From contig PLZO01000018.1 in assembly GCA_003152165.1 (NCBI GenBank), forward strand, positions 173 through 48,055: a DNA stretch of 47,883 nt, in the 5' to 3' direction. Below the pieces are notes generated by a model. That model made no database searches, was not told where the DNA came from, and saw only the letters and a list, made by a program, of their open reading frames with translations. Within the stretch, counting starts at the first letter, position 1. Each line of letters starts with the position of its first letter. The position numbers and the translations under genes are program-made. Below, in pieces: positions 3,913 through 12,965 of this stretch. Source of the stretch: Chloroflexota bacterium (GTDB taxonomy: Bacteria > Chloroflexota > Limnocylindria > Limnocylindrales > CSP1-4).

Positions 3913-6078
3913 ATGACCGCCGTTCGACCGGAGCGGGTCGCTCGCGCAGCCCGGGCACGCCGGTCCGACGGTGAGACCGCGCTGCCCTACCTGAACCGGG
4001 AGCTTTCCTGGCTGGACCTCAACGCGCGGGTGCTCCATGAAGCAACGGACGAGCGCAATCCCCTCCTCGAGCGGGTGAAGTTCCTGGCGATCTTCGCCTC
4101 GAACCTGGACGAGTTCTTCCAGATTCGTGTCGCCGGGCTTCGCCAGCAGCTAGCCGCCTCGGCTGTTCGCAGCTCGCCCGACGGGCGGAGCCCGGAGGAG
4201 CAGCTGGTGGCAATCCGACGACGTGTCCAGGACCTTGTCGAGGAGCAGGGCGTGCTCTTTGGCCGCATCCGGGCGAAGCTCGCCGATGCCGACGTCCGGA
4301 TCGTCGACTATTCGGACGTGCCCGAGCACCACGCCCGCCTGCGCGAACGTTTCATCGAGGAGGTCTTCCCGGTCCTCACCCCGCTGGCCGTCGACCCGGG
4401 CCACCCGTTCCCATACATCTCAACCCTGAGCCTGTCGATCGCCGTCGGCCTGCGTGACCCGGAGACCGGTGAGCGCCGCTTCGCCCGGGTGAAGGTGCCT
4501 CCAGTCCTGCCCCGCCTGATGGAGATCGACCCCACGACCTTCGTCCTGCTCGACCAGGTGATCGCCAACAACCTCGACGTCCTGTTCACCGGCCTGGAGA
4601 TCGTCGAGGCGCACCTCTTCAGGGTCACCCGCAACGCCGACCTTGCGATCGAGGAGGATGAGGCGGACGACCTGCTGATGGCGATCGAGGAGGAACTCCG
4701 CCGACGGCGCTTCGGCGAGGCTGTCCGGCTTGAGGTCGAGCGGAGCATGCCCGCCGCCACCCGGCGGCTCCTGCTCAACGGGATCGGGCTGACCGAGGCC
4801 GATGCCTACGACATTAGCGGAATGCTCGATCTCACCGGGCTGTGGCAGATCGCCGATCTCGACCTGCCCGACCTTCAGCGTCCGCCCTGGACGCCGGTCA
4901 CACCGCCCCGACTGATGCCGCCGGACGAGGACGAGCCAGTCGACGTCTTTGCCGCAATCCGGGCCGGCGACATCCTCGTCCACCACCCGTACGAGTCATT
5001 CGCGGCCTCGACCGAGCAGTTCATCGCCCAGGCCGCGGCGGATCCGGATGTCCTGACGATCAAGCAGACGCTGTATCGAACGTCCGGCGACTCGCCGATC
5101 GTGCGTGACCTGATCCGGGCCGCAGAGCGGGGCAAGCAGGTCGTCGTCCTGGTCGAGATCAAGGCGCGCTTTGACGAGGAGCAGAACATCGTCTGGGCGC
5201 GCACGCTCGAGCGGGCCGGCGCCCACGTCGTCTATGGCCTGGTGGGCCTCAAGACCCACTCGAAGGTTGCCCTCGTCGTTCGGCGCGAGGGCAACCTGCT
5301 CCGCCGCTACGTCCACATCGGGACCGGCAACTACAACCCGAAGACCGCCCGGCTGTATGTCGACGTTGGGTTGCTGACGTGTCGGCCCGAGATCGGGGCC
5401 GACGTGACCGACCTGTTCAATGTCCTGACCGGGCTCTCCCGCCAGCGGACGTTCCGGCGCCTGCTCGTGGCCCCCCACGGGATGCGGACCCGGGTAATCG
5501 AGCTGATCGACCGCGAGATCGGCCACGCGGCGGCCGGCCGGCCCGCCCGGATCGTCCTGAAGATCAATGCGATCGTCGATCCGGCCTGCATCGCGGCCCT
5601 CTATCGGGCGAGCAGCGCCGGCGTCGACGTCGAGTTGATCGTGCGCGGGATCTGTTCTCTGCAGCCCGGCGTGGCCGGGGTTTCCGACCGGATCCATGTC
5701 CGTTCAATCATCGGCGAGTTCCTGGAGCACTCCCGGATCTGGGGATTCGGCAACGCCGGCGCCGACGAGTGGTACATCGGGTCGGCCGACCTGATGGAGC
5801 GCAATCTCGACCGCCGGATTGAGGCCGCCGTGGCGGTCGAGGATGTCGAGGCACGGGCCCGGATTGCGGAGGTGATCGCGACGATGCTGGCCGACGATCG
5901 CCGCTCCTGGCAGCTCGGCAGCGACGCGGTCTGGCGGCGGACCGAGGAACTCAACGGAGTGGAGGGCACGATCGATACATTCACAGCGATGAAGGAACGA
6001 ACCCTGATCTACAGCGCGGTGACGAGCCAGCCTCGCCGGCCGGGGTCGGGCAGCGGCTCCCTGGATCCTCGGGCGTGA
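3913..6078 (+). CDS. ppk1: Polyphosphate kinase PPK1
   Basis: Reversibly transfers the gamma phosphate of ATP to a growing polyphosphate chain. The 721-residue length is normal. In order it shows the N domain (LNRELSWLDLNARVLHEA near residue 26 and FASNLDEFFQIRVAGL), the head domain, and two phospholipase-D-like C domains. The autophosphorylated histidine region is GLKTHSKVALV, followed by HIGTGNYNPKTARLY; the second conserved histidine is in GEFLEHSRIWGFG. The ATG at 3913 has AGGAG 11 nt upstream. The stop overlaps the CYTH-CHAD start by 4 nt, so synthesis of the polymer and of a probable polymer-binding protein are coupled. Confidence 0.97.
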   Translation: MTAVRPERVARAARARRSDGETALPYLNRELSWLDLNARVLHEATDERNPLLERVKFLAIFASNLDEFFQIRVAGLRQQLAASAVRSSPDGRSPEEQLVAIRRRVQDLVEEQGVLFGRIRAKLADADVRIVDYSDVPEHHARLRERFIEEVFPVLTPLAVDPGHPFPYISTLSLSIAVGLRDPETGERRFARVKVPPVLPRLMEIDPTTFVLLDQVIANNLDVLFTGLEIVEAHLFRVTRNADLAIEEDEADDLLMAIEEELRRRRFGEAVRLEVERSMPAATRRLLLNGIGLTEADAYDISGMLDLTGLWQIADLDLPDLQRPPWTPVTPPRLMPPDEDEPVDVFAAIRAGDILVHHPYESFAASTEQFIAQAAADPDVLTIKQTLYRTSGDSPIVRDLIRAAERGKQVVVLVEIKARFDEEQNIVWARTLERAGAHVVYGLVGLKTHSKVALVVRREGNLLRRYVHIGTGNYNPKTARLYVDVGLLTCRPEIGADVTDLFNVLTGLSRQRTFRRLLVAPHGMRTRVIELIDREIGHAAAGRPARIVLKINAIVDPACIAALYRASSAGVDVELIVRGICSLQPGVAGVSDRIHVRSIIGEFLEHSRIWGFGNAGADEWYIGSADLMERNLDRRIEAAVAVEDVEARARIAEVIATMLADDRRSWQLGSDAVWRRTEELNGVEGTIDTFTAMKERTLIYSAVTSQPRRPGSGSGSLDPRA

Positions 6079-8087
6079 GCCTGCCGGGCCCGATGGAGGT
6101 CGAGCTGAAGTACCAGATTGCGGACCTCGCCATCGGTGAGCGGCTGCTGGCTGCGGACCGCCTGGGAGGGTTCGTGCCAGTCGGCGAGATCCGGGTTGCC
6201 GAACAGGTCGACACCTACCTCGACACCCCGGACCGGAGCCTCGAGGCGCGCAAGATCGGGGTCCGCCTGCGAGCCGAAGACGGCGGGACCACGCTCACAA
6301 TCAAGTCGCCCGGGTCGGTGGATGGCGCCTACCGCCGGCGCGAAGAGCTCGAGGGTCCAGCCCAACCCGGCACGCCGCCGGCCTCGTGGCCAGCCTCGGA
6401 CGCACGTGATCGCCTGCTCGAGCTGATCGGCGATCGGCCCCTCCACGAGGTCGTGACGATCCGGCAGTTCAGGCGCAAGCGCGACTTCGCAACGGACGAG
6501 GCCGCGGTGGAGCTCAGCCTCGATGAAGCTCGGATCATCGTGGACGGACGGACGGTCGAGCGCTTCACCGAGCTCGAGGCGGAGCTGACCCGCGGGCCGG
6601 AGACCGCGCTCGGGCCGCTGCTCGGGCTGCTCGACGGTCGGCCGGGGCTCTCGCCAACCGTTGAATCGAAGCTCGCCCGGGCGATGGCGGCAGCAGCGAC
6701 AGCGCGGGCCGCGCCCCCAAAGGTACGCTCACCGGGCCCATCCGGCGCAGCTGCGCTGCCGGTCGCCGAGCCGGCGACAGCGGGTGTCGAGGCGGCCGGC
6801 GACCGGCCGAGTGAGGCGACGCCGAGCATTCCGCAGGTCGCGCCGACGCCCGAGATCGAAATGGCAGCCGAGCCCGTGGTCAAGCCCCTGACAGAACCGG
6901 TGGTCCCGCCGGAACCAGAAGCCCGGGTCGAGCCAGGGTCAGTGGTCGAGGACGAGCCGGAGATGGATGACCCCGCCGAGGTCGCCGACACGTCCGAGAC
7001 CGACGAGGATGCCGACGAGGAGCTCCTGCCGATTCTTGACCTGCCGCGCGCCTCGGAGGACCCACTTGAGCTGCTCGACGCCGGTACCGAACCCGAAGGG
7101 TTGACCGGCAAGGCTGCGCAGGCCGACGCCAATGGCGCGGAGGCACGACTCCCCAGCACCAAGAACCCCGGCGTGGCGGCCGAAGACCTCCACGCGGAGG
7201 CGGGCCGCAAGGTCTTCCGCTTCCACCTTGCCCGGATGCTCGCCCGAGAGGCCGGCACTCGCGCCGGGAACGACCCCGAGGAGCTCCATGGGATGCGCGT
7301 CGCGACCCGCCGGATGCGCGCCGCCTGGCGGGTCTTCGGCGACGCCTATCGCCCGGCGAAGACCAGGCCCTATCGGCGCCGGCTGCGCGAGCTGGCCGGA
7401 CTGCTCGGCGCCGTTCGTGACCTCGATGTGCTGATCGAGGCGACGGAGGCCTACGCTCAGGCGATCGGCTCCCCCGACCTGGTCGGGCTGGAGCCGCTGC
7501 TGGCTGCCTGGCGGGGCGACCGCGACTCCGCCCGAGAACGCCTCATCGTCGTGCTCGACTCGAAGGGCCATCGTCGCTTCGTCGACGAATACGTCGACTT
7601 CGTGTCGAGCCCCGGCCGCGATGTCCTGCCGCTGGAGACCACGACCCCGCATCGCGTCCGGGATACCGCTGCCTCCCGGATCTGGACGGCCTATGAACAC
7701 GTCCGGGCTTACGAAGCCGTCCTGCGCTGGGCCGACGTGCCCACGCTCCACCAGCTCCGGATCGCCGCCAAACGACTGCGCTACACCCTCGAGTTCGTGC
7801 GGGAGCCGCTTGGCCCGGACGCCTCCCCGCTGATCGCCCGCGTTGTCGCGCTCCAGGACCATCTCGGTTTCATGAATGATGCCGAGGTCGCCGCAACGAT
7901 GGCTCGGAACTTCCTCGTCGAGCGCGGCAACGAACTGACCGAATCCGAGGCACAGGCGATCGGTCGCTATCTCGTCTCGCGCGAGCGCGAGGTAGCCCGG
8001 CTGAAGCGGACCGTGGGCACCGCTTGGCGGGGCGTCGCGGGCCTTACGTTCCGGCGCGGCCTGGGCCGGACGGTGGCGATCCTGTAG
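6075..8087 (+). CDS. CYTH-CHAD domain protein (polyphosphate-associated)
   Basis: A 670-residue two-domain protein. The N-terminal CYTH domain (about residues 5-200) starts with the ExExK motif (MEVELKYQI), the triphosphate-binding signature of class IV adenylyl cyclase/thiamine triphosphatase folds. The C-terminal CHAD domain (about 375-660) is a helical bundle with the conserved basic stretch LHGMRVATRRMRAAWRVF and a second one, LHQLRIAAKRLRYTLEF; CHAD domains bind polyphosphate. Between them is an unusually long, Pro/Ala/Glu/Asp-rich linker of about 170 residues. The GTG at 6075 overlaps the ppk stop; an ATG at 6093 is an alternative. The position directly after ppk supports a role on polyphosphate granules, which is inference. 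Confidence 0.92.
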   Translation: MSLPGPMEVELKYQIADLAIGERLLAADRLGGFVPVGEIRVAEQVDTYLDTPDRSLEARKIGVRLRAEDGGTTLTIKSPGSVDGAYRRREELEGPAQPGTPPASWPASDARDRLLELIGDRPLHEVVTIRQFRRKRDFATDEAAVELSLDEARIIVDGRTVERFTELEAELTRGPETALGPLLGLLDGRPGLSPTVESKLARAMAAAATARAAPPKVRSPGPSGAAALPVAEPATAGVEAAGDRPSEATPSIPQVAPTPEIEMAAEPVVKPLTEPVVPPEPEARVEPGSVVEDEPEMDDPAEVADTSETDEDADEELLPILDLPRASEDPLELLDAGTEPEGLTGKAAQADANGAEARLPSTKNPGVAAEDLHAEAGRKVFRFHLARMLAREAGTRAGNDPEELHGMRVATRRMRAAWRVFGDAYRPAKTRPYRRRLRELAGLLGAVRDLDVLIEATEAYAQAIGSPDLVGLEPLLAAWRGDRDSARERLIVVLDSKGHRRFVDEYVDFVSSPGRDVLPLETTTPHRVRDTAASRIWTAYEHVRAYEAVLRWADVPTLHQLRIAAKRLRYTLEFVREPLGPDASPLIARVVALQDHLGFMNDAEVAATMARNFLVERGNELTESEAQAIGRYLVSREREVARLKRTVGTAWRGVAGLTFRRGLGRTVAIL

Positions 8088-9830: not shown

Positions 9831-10925
9831 CTACGCGCGGGTTTCGGCGGTTCCCTCCGCCCAGCCGTGGGCGAGCCTGGCCAAGGCGTCCCGCCAGGCG
9901 ATCCCGGCGTGGGCCTGGGCCAGGACAATGCCTTCTCTTATCCCGGCTTCGGAGACGGTCAGCTCCTCCAGGCCGAAATGCGCCAGGATCGTTTCGAGAA
10001 TCACGGCTCCGGCGGGCAGCAGCCGAGCCCGTGTCGGATTGATCGCATAGCGCTCGGCCACCGCCAGCGAAGGCTCGGCGCCGAGCGCGTCGAGCGCCGC
10101 CCGGAGACGCCCTCGATCGAGGCGGCGGTCGAGGGCCGCCGCTGGCAGGACCTTGACCAGGTTCGACGCCGTACCACCGACGGCGATGAGCTCGGCCAGA
10201 CTGACCGCCGGAGTTTCGGCCATCAGGCGGCGGGCCTCGGCCCGCATCATCTCGATCTCCCCGGGCGCGGGCGGATCGTTCGCAACGAACGCGGCAGTCA
10301 AACGCGCCCCACCCAGGCGCAGCCCGATCGATGCCGGGGGATGGCCCGGTCCCACGCGCACGATCTGGCTGCTGCCTCCGCCCACGTCGACAATCGCCAG
10401 CTCCCGGTTGATCAGTTGGCCCTGGGTGACACCAATCAGGGTCAGTTCCGCCTCTTCGTGCGGATCGAGGACGCACAGTGGGACGGCCGTGGCCAGGGCG
10501 ACCTCGTGAACCGCCGTGGCCGCGTCGCCGGCCCGGCGCATCGGCTCGGTGCCGACGAAGGCGATCCTCTCGGCCCCCAGCCGGCGGGCCGTCTGCGCGT
10601 AACCGACGAGGGCGGCCACGAGTTCGGCGCGCTTCGCCGGACCGAGCGTGCCGGCCGAGTCGACCCGATCGCCGAGGCCGAGGAACACCGACTCGTCCAC
10701 GAGCGGATCGAGCCGGTGGCCGGTCACCAGGCCGACCAGCAGATGAACCGAGTTCGCCCCCACGTCGACTCCGGCCATAACGCGGCCACCCGCTTCGAGC
10801 ATCGACAGGACGTCTGGATCCGGCGCCGCTTCCACGGCCCCGGACGGATCGACCGACACCTGGACGGGTTCAGTCGCCCGGCGATCCGCCGGTTCAGCTA
10901 GTGGACTCGCCGGAACCACCGCCAT
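9831..10925 (-). CDS. ppx: Exopolyphosphatase / Ppx-GppA phosphatase
   Basis: Hydrolyses terminal phosphates of polyphosphate (or pppGpp). The 364-residue protein has the ASKHA fold of the Ppx/GppA family. The first phosphate-binding loop is AGVDVGANSVHLLVG (about residue 45) and the second is AIVDVGGGSSQIV (about 175). It is shorter than E. coli Ppx, matching the short two-domain form common in Actinobacteria and Chloroflexi. The ATG at 10925 has GGAGG upstream and overlaps the end of the coiled-coil gene by 32 nt; a later start close to the ASKHA domain cannot be excluded. Proximity to ppk and pst supports the polyphosphate role. Confidence 0.9.
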   Translation of the reverse strand: MAVVPASPLAEPADRRATEPVQVSVDPSGAVEAAPDPDVLSMLEAGGRVMAGVDVGANSVHLLVGLVTGHRLDPLVDESVFLGLGDRVDSAGTLGPAKRAELVAALVGYAQTARRLGAERIAFVGTEPMRRAGDAATAVHEVALATAVPLCVLDPHEEAELTLIGVTQGQLINRELAIVDVGGGSSQIVRVGPGHPPASIGLRLGGARLTAAFVANDPPAPGEIEMMRAEARRLMAETPAVSLAELIAVGGTASNLVKVLPAAALDRRLDRGRLRAALDALGAEPSLAVAERYAINPTRARLLPAGAVILETILAHFGLEELTVSEAGIREGIVLAQAHAGIAWRDALARLAHGWAEGTAETRA

Positions 10926-11427
10926 CGGGTTGAAGAGACCTCCGCGTTCGAGGCCGGACCGGCGTCGTGGTCGGTCCGGCCGCCGGCGTCGTGGTTGACG
11001 TGCGCCGGGTGCCCCTCGGACTGGCCCCCGCTCCCCTGGTCCGTCGGACGATCGGCTTGGCCGGGGCCTCAGCCAACGCCGCCGACTTGGCGCGCTCCTC
11101 GGCCCGGATCGCCTCGGCAGCCTCGTGGGCAATGTCGCTGACCGTCTGGCGCCCCTGGGCTCGAGCGTTGGCCGCGATCATCTCGGACAGCTCGGTCAGG
11201 AGGGTGGCCGCCTGGCCCGCCCTGGCAATCGCCGCGTCCAACTGGCCCTGCCGGCGGGTCCTCTCGGCGCCGGTTGCCTCGAGCAGCTGGTGACGGCGCT
11301 TCGACTCGTCTGCCCGGGCGGCGGCCAGCCGCTTCTCGAGCCGGCCGAGGAGCTTCCAGGCGCGCTTGAATGCCTTCGTCGCTGCCCCCTTCGAGGGCTT
11401 CGCTTGCTTGGCTTCGCTCTTGGCCAT
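10894..11427 (-). CDS. Basic coiled-coil protein upstream of ppx
   Basis: A 177-residue protein of unknown family. Residues 1-35 are lysine-rich (MAKSEAKQAKPSKGAATKAF). Residues 20-120 are heptad-like alpha-helix rich in Ala, Leu, Glu and Arg, likely a coiled coil. The last 50 residues are a disordered Arg/Thr/Pro tail (repeated RRT and TTTP). There is no membrane segment or signal. The ATG at 11427 has GAGGAG about 9 nt upstream. The end of the gene overlaps the ppx start, so the two are one operon. Such a highly basic profile suits binding to a polyanion (polyphosphate or nucleic acid); this is inference from composition and context. Confidence 0.75.
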   Translation of the reverse strand: MAKSEAKQAKPSKGAATKAFKRAWKLLGRLEKRLAAARADESKRRHQLLEATGAERTRRQGQLDAAIARAGQAATLLTELSEMIAANARAQGRQTVSDIAHEAAEAIRAEERAKSAALAEAPAKPIVRRTRGAGASPRGTRRTSTTTPAAGPTTTPVRPRTRRSLQPDGGGSGESTS

Positions 11428-11513
11428 CGGTCTCGACTCCTCGCTTGACGGTTGGTGGTGCTCGAGGATCGCCGGCCCAGGAATCAACCTGGCCGCGTCG
11501 TCTGGAACAGCAG

Positions 11514-11551
11514 GGTTGGCTCGCTAATCGCGACCGACCGGCGAGCCAACC
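11514..11551. repeat. 11-bp perfect inverted repeat in the ppx-operon/pstS divergent region
   Basis: The arm GGTTGGCTCGC (11514-11524) and its exact complement (11541-11551) are separated by 16 nt. It lies between two divergent genes, so it is not at the end of either. It could be an operator for a dimeric regulator or a 5' leader structure. The rest of the 326-nt gap 11428-11753 contains the ribosome binding sites of both genes and a possible Pho box, and no further gene. Confidence 0.6.
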
Positions 11552-11649
11552 TCCAGTCTGCCACCGCCAACAGGAATCTCGTTGAAACTCGCGTCGCGGC
11601 AGCCGGCGTTCACGAGGGGGCCGGCGCGGTCCTGCGGCGTCTGGCCACT

Positions 11650-11753: not shown

Positions 11754-12965
11754 TTGACCATCGGGATTCGCCGCTTCGGCGCACTCGCCGTTGCTGCCTC
11801 CATGGCGATCGCCGCCTGCTCAAGCTCGGGCGCAACCTCAAGCCCAACCCCTCCGAGTGCCGCCCCGTCGACCGCCCCAGGGGCCACTCCCGCAACGTCC
11901 GGTGCGGCTTCGAGCGCGTCGGGCAGTGGCGCCCCGGTCACCTATCGATGCACCAAGGGCGACGGCACGCTCAGCGGCGCCGGCTCGACGTTCATCAATC
12001 CGCTCCTGTCGAAGATGGCCGGCGACTACAACTCCAAGTGCGGCGTGCAGGTTAACTACCAGTCCGTCGGCTCCGGTGCCGGGGTCAAGGATTGGCAGCA
12101 GAACACGGTGGACTTCGGCGCCTCGGATGCCTACCTCGCCGATTCCGAGATCGCAGCAGCCGCGGCCAACGGCGCTCCCGTGGAAGTCCCCACAACCTTC
12201 GGTGCGGTGGTGGTTGCCTACAACCTGAGCGGCCTTTCGGGCACGATCAAGATGACCCCGGACATCATCGCGAACATCTTTCTGGGCAAGATCACCACCT
12301 GGAACGACCCGGCGCTCGCCGCGGCCAATCCGGGTCTTAACCTGCCGAGCACGGCCATCAGCGTCGTCCACCGCTCGGATGGCTCGGGCACCACCAGCAT
12401 CTTCACCCACTACCTGACGGCTGTCAGCACCGACTGGGTCACCACGGTGGGCGCCGGTGACCCAACCAAGTCAGCCGCCAAGACCGTCACCTGGCCGGTC
12501 GGGCAGGGCGCCAGTGGCAACGAAGGCGTGACCCAGGGCATCAAGGGGACCGATGGGGCCGTGGGCTATATCGACGTCGCCTATGCCATCCAGAACCAGA
12601 TCCCGTTCGGGGACGTCCAGAACAAGAGCGGGAACTTCATCACCGCGTCACTGGCCTCGATCGCGGCGGCGGCCAACCTGCCGTCCTATCCGGTCGACCT
12701 GCGCTTCAACCTGACCAATACCGATGCCGCCCAGGGCTACCCCATTGCCGGCACGACGTGGATCATCGTGTACAAGGACCTGTCCAAGGTCATGAAGAGC
12801 CAGGACCGGGCGAATTCGCTGGTCGACTTCATCTGGTGGGCGATCCACGACGGCCAGGCGGACGCCGCGCCGCTCGACTACGGCTCGCTACCGGCAAACC
12901 TCCTGGCGCAGGATGAGGCCGCGGTCAGGTCGATCAACTGGGCGGGCGCGCCCCTGCTTCCCTAG
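11754..12965 (+). CDS. pstS: Phosphate ABC transporter substrate-binding lipoprotein
   Basis: Captures inorganic phosphate outside the membrane and delivers it to PstCA. The 403-residue precursor starts at TTG with a lipoprotein signal peptide (ALAVAASMAIAACSS; lipidated Cys near residue 22). A Ser/Pro/Ala/Thr-rich linker follows to about residue 60. The mature domain has the PstS phosphate-site blocks GAGSTFINPLLSKM, DFGASDAYL, HRSDGSGTTSIF and the C-terminal GASGNEGVTQGIKGTDGAVGYIDV. It is the first gene of pstSCAB-phoU and is separated from pstC by a strong hairpin that may raise its relative expression. Confidence 0.97.
   Translation: MTIGIRRFGALAVAASMAIAACSSSGATSSPTPPSAAPSTAPGATPATSGAASSASGSGAPVTYRCTKGDGTLSGAGSTFINPLLSKMAGDYNSKCGVQVNYQSVGSGAGVKDWQQNTVDFGASDAYLADSEIAAAAANGAPVEVPTTFGAVVVAYNLSGLSGTIKMTPDIIANIFLGKITTWNDPALAAANPGLNLPSTAISVVHRSDGSGTTSIFTHYLTAVSTDWVTTVGAGDPTKSAAKTVTWPVGQGASGNEGVTQGIKGTDGAVGYIDVAYAIQNQIPFGDVQNKSGNFITASLASIAAAANLPSYPVDLRFNLTNTDAAQGYPIAGTTWIIVYKDLSKVMKSQDRANSLVDFIWWAIHDGQADAAPLDYGSLPANLLAQDEAAVRSINWAGAPLLP

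Follow-up and report, generated by a model that had tools for sequence, protein, structure and literature searches.

A small gene for a basic helical protein, directly upstream of the exopolyphosphatase gene ppx, is specifically linked to ppx in a family of soil Chloroflexota, and in one genus of this family a comparable basic segment is fused to Ppx itself. We found the gene in the window, by which we mean the whole stretch of 47,883 nt analysed here (positions 173 to 48,055 of contig PLZO01000018.1, assembly GCA_003152165.1); the features discussed below are collected in Table 1. The best explanation that we can offer, and one that we hold with evenly balanced confidence, is that the gene product serves the neighbouring short-type Ppx as an accessory subunit for the recruitment of its substrate or of polyphosphate granules.

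Table 1. Features of the window that bear on the basic gene and its surroundings
Feature	Position	Strand	Remark
ppk, polyphosphate kinase 1	3913..6078	plus	same cluster
CYTH-CHAD protein	6075..8087	plus	acidic linker; same cluster
ppx, short-type exopolyphosphatase	9831..10925	minus	364 aa; PF02541
Overlap of basic gene and ppx, 32 nt	10894..10925	minus	holds if ppx starts at ATG 10925
Basic helical-hairpin protein gene (P0001)	10894..11427	minus	ORF from ATG to TGA, 177 aa; disordered Arg/Thr/Pro tail
GGAGG, putative Shine-Dalgarno of ppx	10939..10943	minus	inside the basic gene; kept in G002 and G003
Metallophosphoesterase (PF00149) remnant	11487..11625	minus	last 46 residues, frameshifted (two frames)
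pstS, start of the pst operon	11754..12965	plus	adjoins the basic gene in the window genome

A basic helical-hairpin protein

The protein (pI approximately 11.6) has the N terminus MAKSEAKQAKPSKGAATKAFKRAWK, followed by a helical region and an Arg/Thr/Pro-rich tail, and its net charge is +10 over residues 1-115 and +8 over the tail. The ATG start is preceded by GAGGAG and is common to the relatives, while an in-frame TTG upstream would give an alternative product of 197 aa. The AlphaFold prediction (four sequences) places helices at residues 13-50, 54-92 and 96-119, of which the first two, mostly with pLDDT >90, form a helical hairpin, and predicts disorder from residue 121 on. The ORF, the charge and the AlphaFold prediction thus agree with the first-pass annotation of this DNA, which had described a Lys-rich N terminus, a long helix and an Arg/Thr/Pro tail. 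That annotation had also called the protein unrecognised, and rightly so: sequence searches of Pfam, NCBIfam and the PDB with the 177-aa protein gave nothing above chance, and no Pfam family, CHAD (PF05235) included, was found at E ≤1. A Foldseek search of the predicted structure against the PDB gave no match at E ≤0.001; all that it returned were generic helical hairpins.

GC-rich DNA in this region yields long antisense frames, and the basic gene has a low codon score; both would suit the view that the ORF is no gene, but a GC-rich frame that is open by chance. However, comparison with G002 and G003 gives dN/dS values of 0.38 and 0.28, respectively, over the first 115 codons, the changes between these sequences lie mostly at codon position 3, the start and a motif are common to the same-genus genomes, and fusions occur in a sister genus. 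Given this conservation, we rejected a chance open frame, to which we attach practically no credence. Judged from its substitution pattern, the basic gene is a real coding gene under purifying selection. Its tail evolves faster, with dN/dS of 0.51-0.56 against the same two genomes. At usable similarity the gene is present in three other genomes of the window genus and in one of another genus; the four relatives named through the same-genus alignment are Chloroflexota metagenome genomes, one of them labelled Candidatus Limnocylindrales.

We also measured the charge of 16 unfused proteins. Residues 1-115 were net positive in all of them (+3 to +17), and the tail was positive in 14, with many tails strongly basic (+12 to +56); the tails of G028 and G015 were acidic (net -20 each). 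Since the core is positive throughout and the tails are mixed, it is the basic helical part that is conserved, and the tail is often, but need not be, basic. KPA repeats occur in the tails of some relatives (G115, with nine, G006 and G032). In the G076 protein encoded upstream of ppx (locus L111), the coiled coil is followed by an AT-hook-like RRGRPPGSKN and then by an Ala/Lys/Thr/Arg tail.

The overlap of the basic gene with ppx, which had been taken as translational coupling, stands if ppx starts at ATG 10925, and the identical 32-nt overlap is present in G002. However, G003 has no ATG at that site, and therefore the ppx start at 10925 is not proven. The GGAGG inside the basic gene lies 13 nt upstream of this ATG and encodes part of a recurring RRSL motif. 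A scan for promoters and terminators found nothing.

Linkage of the basic gene to ppx

In 107 genomes of the Candidatus Limnocylindrales family, we listed the ppx loci and read the surroundings of nearly all of them. A separate basic helical protein is encoded directly upstream of, and co-directionally with, ppx at 20 loci in 10 genera; among these, G001, G116, G025 and G073 are interrupted by a contig end or represented only by the C-terminal tail at such an end, and G028 is split as well. Three loci (L042, L044 and L111) were read by hand, because gene calling by codon score had picked antisense frames. About half of the ppx loci in the family are without the basic gene, including those of the close relatives G074, G113 and G077, and therefore the gene is not essential to Ppx in general. 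In the Ppx tree, the states of presence and absence cluster, with one large group of 15 without the basic gene.

A profile of the core, applied to the 107 family genomes and 177 genomes of the class, gave no more than one match in any genome, all of them within the family. The strong matches adjoin ppx, including that in G115, which had no part in building the profile, and the weaker matches in G076 and G078 also lie beside ppx. In G001 and G028, the basic gene and ppx are on different contigs with ends that fit together. Weak matches away from ppx were found in G093, G095 and G024, the last of which is a coiled coil. Thus the co-occurrence with ppx across genomes that had been proposed as a check was found, with only weak matches elsewhere. 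The match in G093 is an 86-aa protein near possible phosphonate genes, and that in G095 is similar. Small basic proteins with an LE[KR]RL...KEEAKRR.QL motif are encoded at L124:4974-5231 and L123:5353-5547, where no ppx is adjacent and the neighbours, possibly phosphonate genes, encode an aminotransferase and a phosphonatase-like hydrolase.

As a control, we counted basic Lys-containing proteins, by a fixed definition, in the fetched loci. They make up 11 of 601 called genes, a base rate that covers DNA near ppx and not whole genomes, and 10 of the 11 are beside ppx, where there are 20 called genes in all. The Fisher p-value of approximately 1e-15 is overstated, given the relatedness of the genomes and a definition of basic proteins that was set after the family had been seen. 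The linkage of the basic gene to ppx is specific.

Fusion of a basic segment to Ppx in genus g2

In an eleventh genus, g2, one open frame runs without a stop from a Lys/Ala-rich segment through an acidic linker rich in Pro and Glu into the Ppx domain. The fusions are 667 (G004), 617 (G062), 551 (G064), 606 (G068) and 589 aa long (G070); of these, the G068 fusion has an uncertain start, and the G070 fusion runs off its contig at the 3' end. In G063, G066 and G069 of the same genus, the in-frame linker reaches the contig edge. The basic segment spans 63-122 aa with a net charge of +16 to +36, and the linker carries a net charge of -8 to -54. The fusions of G004, G062 and G064 have a common start with GGAGCGTTCGATG. 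Among these three, dN/dS is 0.33-0.51 for the basic part and 0.33-0.43 for the linker, and basic part, linker and Ppx all remain below 0.55 in one frame. In a Pfam search of three g2 fusions, only Ppx-GppA scored above the cut-off. The fused loci form one group in the Ppx tree (support 89/65).

The fused and unfused modules share position and charge only, and the core profile has no match in the g2 genomes (low complexity). Between genera, the similarity is likewise weak, at 22-39% over low-complexity sequence, and therefore it is not proven that all basic modules share a common descent, and for the fused ones least of all. The fused and unfused modules may nevertheless be homologous.

A short exopolyphosphatase with an altered metal-binding motif

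In E. coli PPX, catalysis resides in domains 1 and 2 and substrate binding in domains 3 and 4 (PMC5025862). The alignment of the window Ppx with this enzyme (1u6z) covers only residues 13-317 of 513, and by this alignment the window Ppx is of the short type, without the C-terminal domains 3 and 4. It is in this respect like PPX1 of Mycobacterium tuberculosis (Rv0496), likewise of the type with catalytic domains only, which acts preferentially on short chains and for which an alternative mode of polyphosphate binding has been proposed (PMC3411833). In contrast to Rv0496-like short enzymes, the Ppx of genus g2 carries the N-terminal basic fusion, which was found in no curated family searched. 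The window Ppx also has an acidic N-terminal extension (net -5 over 50 residues).

The metal-binding motif of the window Ppx reads DVGGGSSQ, in which Gln replaces the Glu of DxGGGS[ST]E (Glu142 in M. tuberculosis PPX1). This Gln occurs in all four genomes of the window genus and in G077, G078 and G080; the other Ppx proteins of the family in which the motif was found keep the Glu. To judge from the motif, the exchange may alter the activity. Two more divergent Ppx/GppA-like genes, with the motif DSGGASTE, are present in the window genome (L129 and L130, on contigs C34 and C153 of G000).

A proposed accessory module of Ppx

We propose that the basic antiparallel helical hairpin, together with the basic disordered tail in most lineages, would hold the polyphosphate polyanion or the granule, with the protein or granule perhaps tethered to DNA, and that the module would thereby bring Ppx to its polyphosphate substrate. 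Acting in trans in the window genus and in cis in the g2 fusions, it would fill the substrate-holding role of domains 3 and 4 of E. coli PPX. The likeness to these domains lies in the proposed role, namely to keep the polyphosphate chain in place for the catalytic domains; it differs in that there is no domain match and in that the module, a basic hairpin or low-complexity segment, is N-terminal or separate. The unfused protein would presumably contact Ppx. In E. coli, proteins bind polyphosphate through Lys-rich regions (PMC12345225), and binding of polyphosphate and a location at granules make a good hypothesis for the basic protein in view of the parallel with AlgP described below. On the other side, the acidic tails in G028 and G015 and the ppx loci without a module call for caution about recruitment.

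AlgP of Pseudomonas aeruginosa is a histone H1-like protein with a helical domain and a KPAA tail, which sits on polyphosphate granules and spaces them (PMC9239181). The window protein resembles it in having a helical N-terminal domain and a disordered tail (Lys/Ala/Pro in AlgP), in its tie to polyphosphate and, in some relatives, in the KPA repeats. However, the window gene is tied to Ppx, or in g2 is part of it, and there is no sequence relationship: NCBIfam AlgP_Nterm (NF038178) scores the window protein at 11 bits (E 0.43) with a cut-off of 100, and the window protein has no KPA repeat that would correspond to the KPAA tail. The best reading is by analogy, in that the basic protein may work somewhat like AlgP without being homologous to it. 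A second comparison lies within the cluster itself, where the CHAD domain (PF05235) is likewise basic and helical and binds polyphosphate (PMC6537752), although the window protein has no Pfam match to it.

The same features could also be those of a histone H1-like nucleoid protein, whose basic tail binds DNA and which lies in the ppx operon only for co-expression under phosphate starvation, so that polyphosphate is no ligand. The Ala/Lys/Pro-rich tails of variable length, the AT-hook-like motif of G076 and the binding of DNA by peptides of the AlgP tail (PMC9239181) all fit this. However, the tails are acidic in two genera, the core has no second copy elsewhere in these genomes, and in g2 Ppx itself carries comparable basic segments as fusions, so that we regard such a protein as unlikely. 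If the hairpin instead contacts Ppx to control its activity or assembly, as a regulator or stabiliser, then the charge would serve protein-protein contact, and the tail would be a spacer whose charge is irrelevant. A basic core that is conserved while the tail varies freely would be expected of such a partner, and the acidic N-terminal extension of the window Ppx, the acidic linkers of the fusions and the exchange of Glu for Gln in the metal site in g1 and g19 would suit it as well. Nevertheless, tail charges of +12 to +56 in many proteins go beyond the needs of a spacer, and we consider a regulator or stabiliser improbable.

We also considered a phasin-like protein of polyhydroxyalkanoate (PHA) granules. 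A helical part and a basic KPAA tail are also found in PhaF, which is believed to link granules to the nucleoid (PMC9239181), and Ala-rich amphipathic repeats are present in G080. However, the basic gene sits among polyphosphate genes, and a search for PhaC_N, which found the Caulobacter control, gave no match in 37 genomes. With no PHA synthase found by PhaC_N in these genomes, we dropped this reading as exceedingly improbable.

The family might further represent a new architecture of exopolyphosphatase, in which a short Ppx works with an interchangeable basic module for binding polyphosphate or granules, present as a translationally coupled partner or as an N-terminal fusion, in place of the C-terminal domains that bind substrate in E. 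coli PPX. We put this forward tentatively, as somewhat short of an even chance. It would bear on how short exopolyphosphatases without C-terminal binding domains engage long polyphosphate, for which an alternative binding mode has been suggested (PMC3411833), and few granule proteins are known. The theme seen in AlgP, a helical part with a basic disordered tail tied to polyphosphate, would extend to Chloroflexota. The family also offers a natural pair for direct tests, in that one enzyme occurs with its basic module either separate or fused.

Neighbouring genes

The order of ppk, the CYTH-CHAD gene and a convergent ppx with the upstream basic gene recurs across many genera, and pstSCAB-phoU-sixA often lies beyond the cluster. 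Together with the ppx-adjacent homologues and the fused module in one genus, this recurring order gives good support to the earlier suggestion that the basic protein belongs to the same system as ppk, CYTH-CHAD and ppx.

The first-pass annotation had further noted that the gene is divergent from pstS. This is so in the window and not in the relatives, where a metallophosphoesterase gene intervenes: G001, G002 and G003 have it immediately upstream of the basic gene (PF00149 was assigned on the G002 copy), and G002 has several other genes between the basic gene and pstS. The window keeps only a scrap of it (Table 1). The divergence from pstS is therefore the result of a local loss of the metallophosphoesterase gene, and a divergent promoter shared with pstS was rejected as a general feature, because the relatives have the metallophosphoesterase as the neighbour.

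Two further arrangements were seen upstream of ppx. In genus g5 (L050 and L061), the position directly upstream of ppx is taken by a different gene, for a PrpE-like phosphatase, instead of the basic gene. In G002 (L037:5708-7494, plus strand), two tandem thymidylate-kinase-like genes lie upstream of the metallophosphoesterase, the basic gene and ppx; their thymidylate-kinase-like fold is shared with PPK2.
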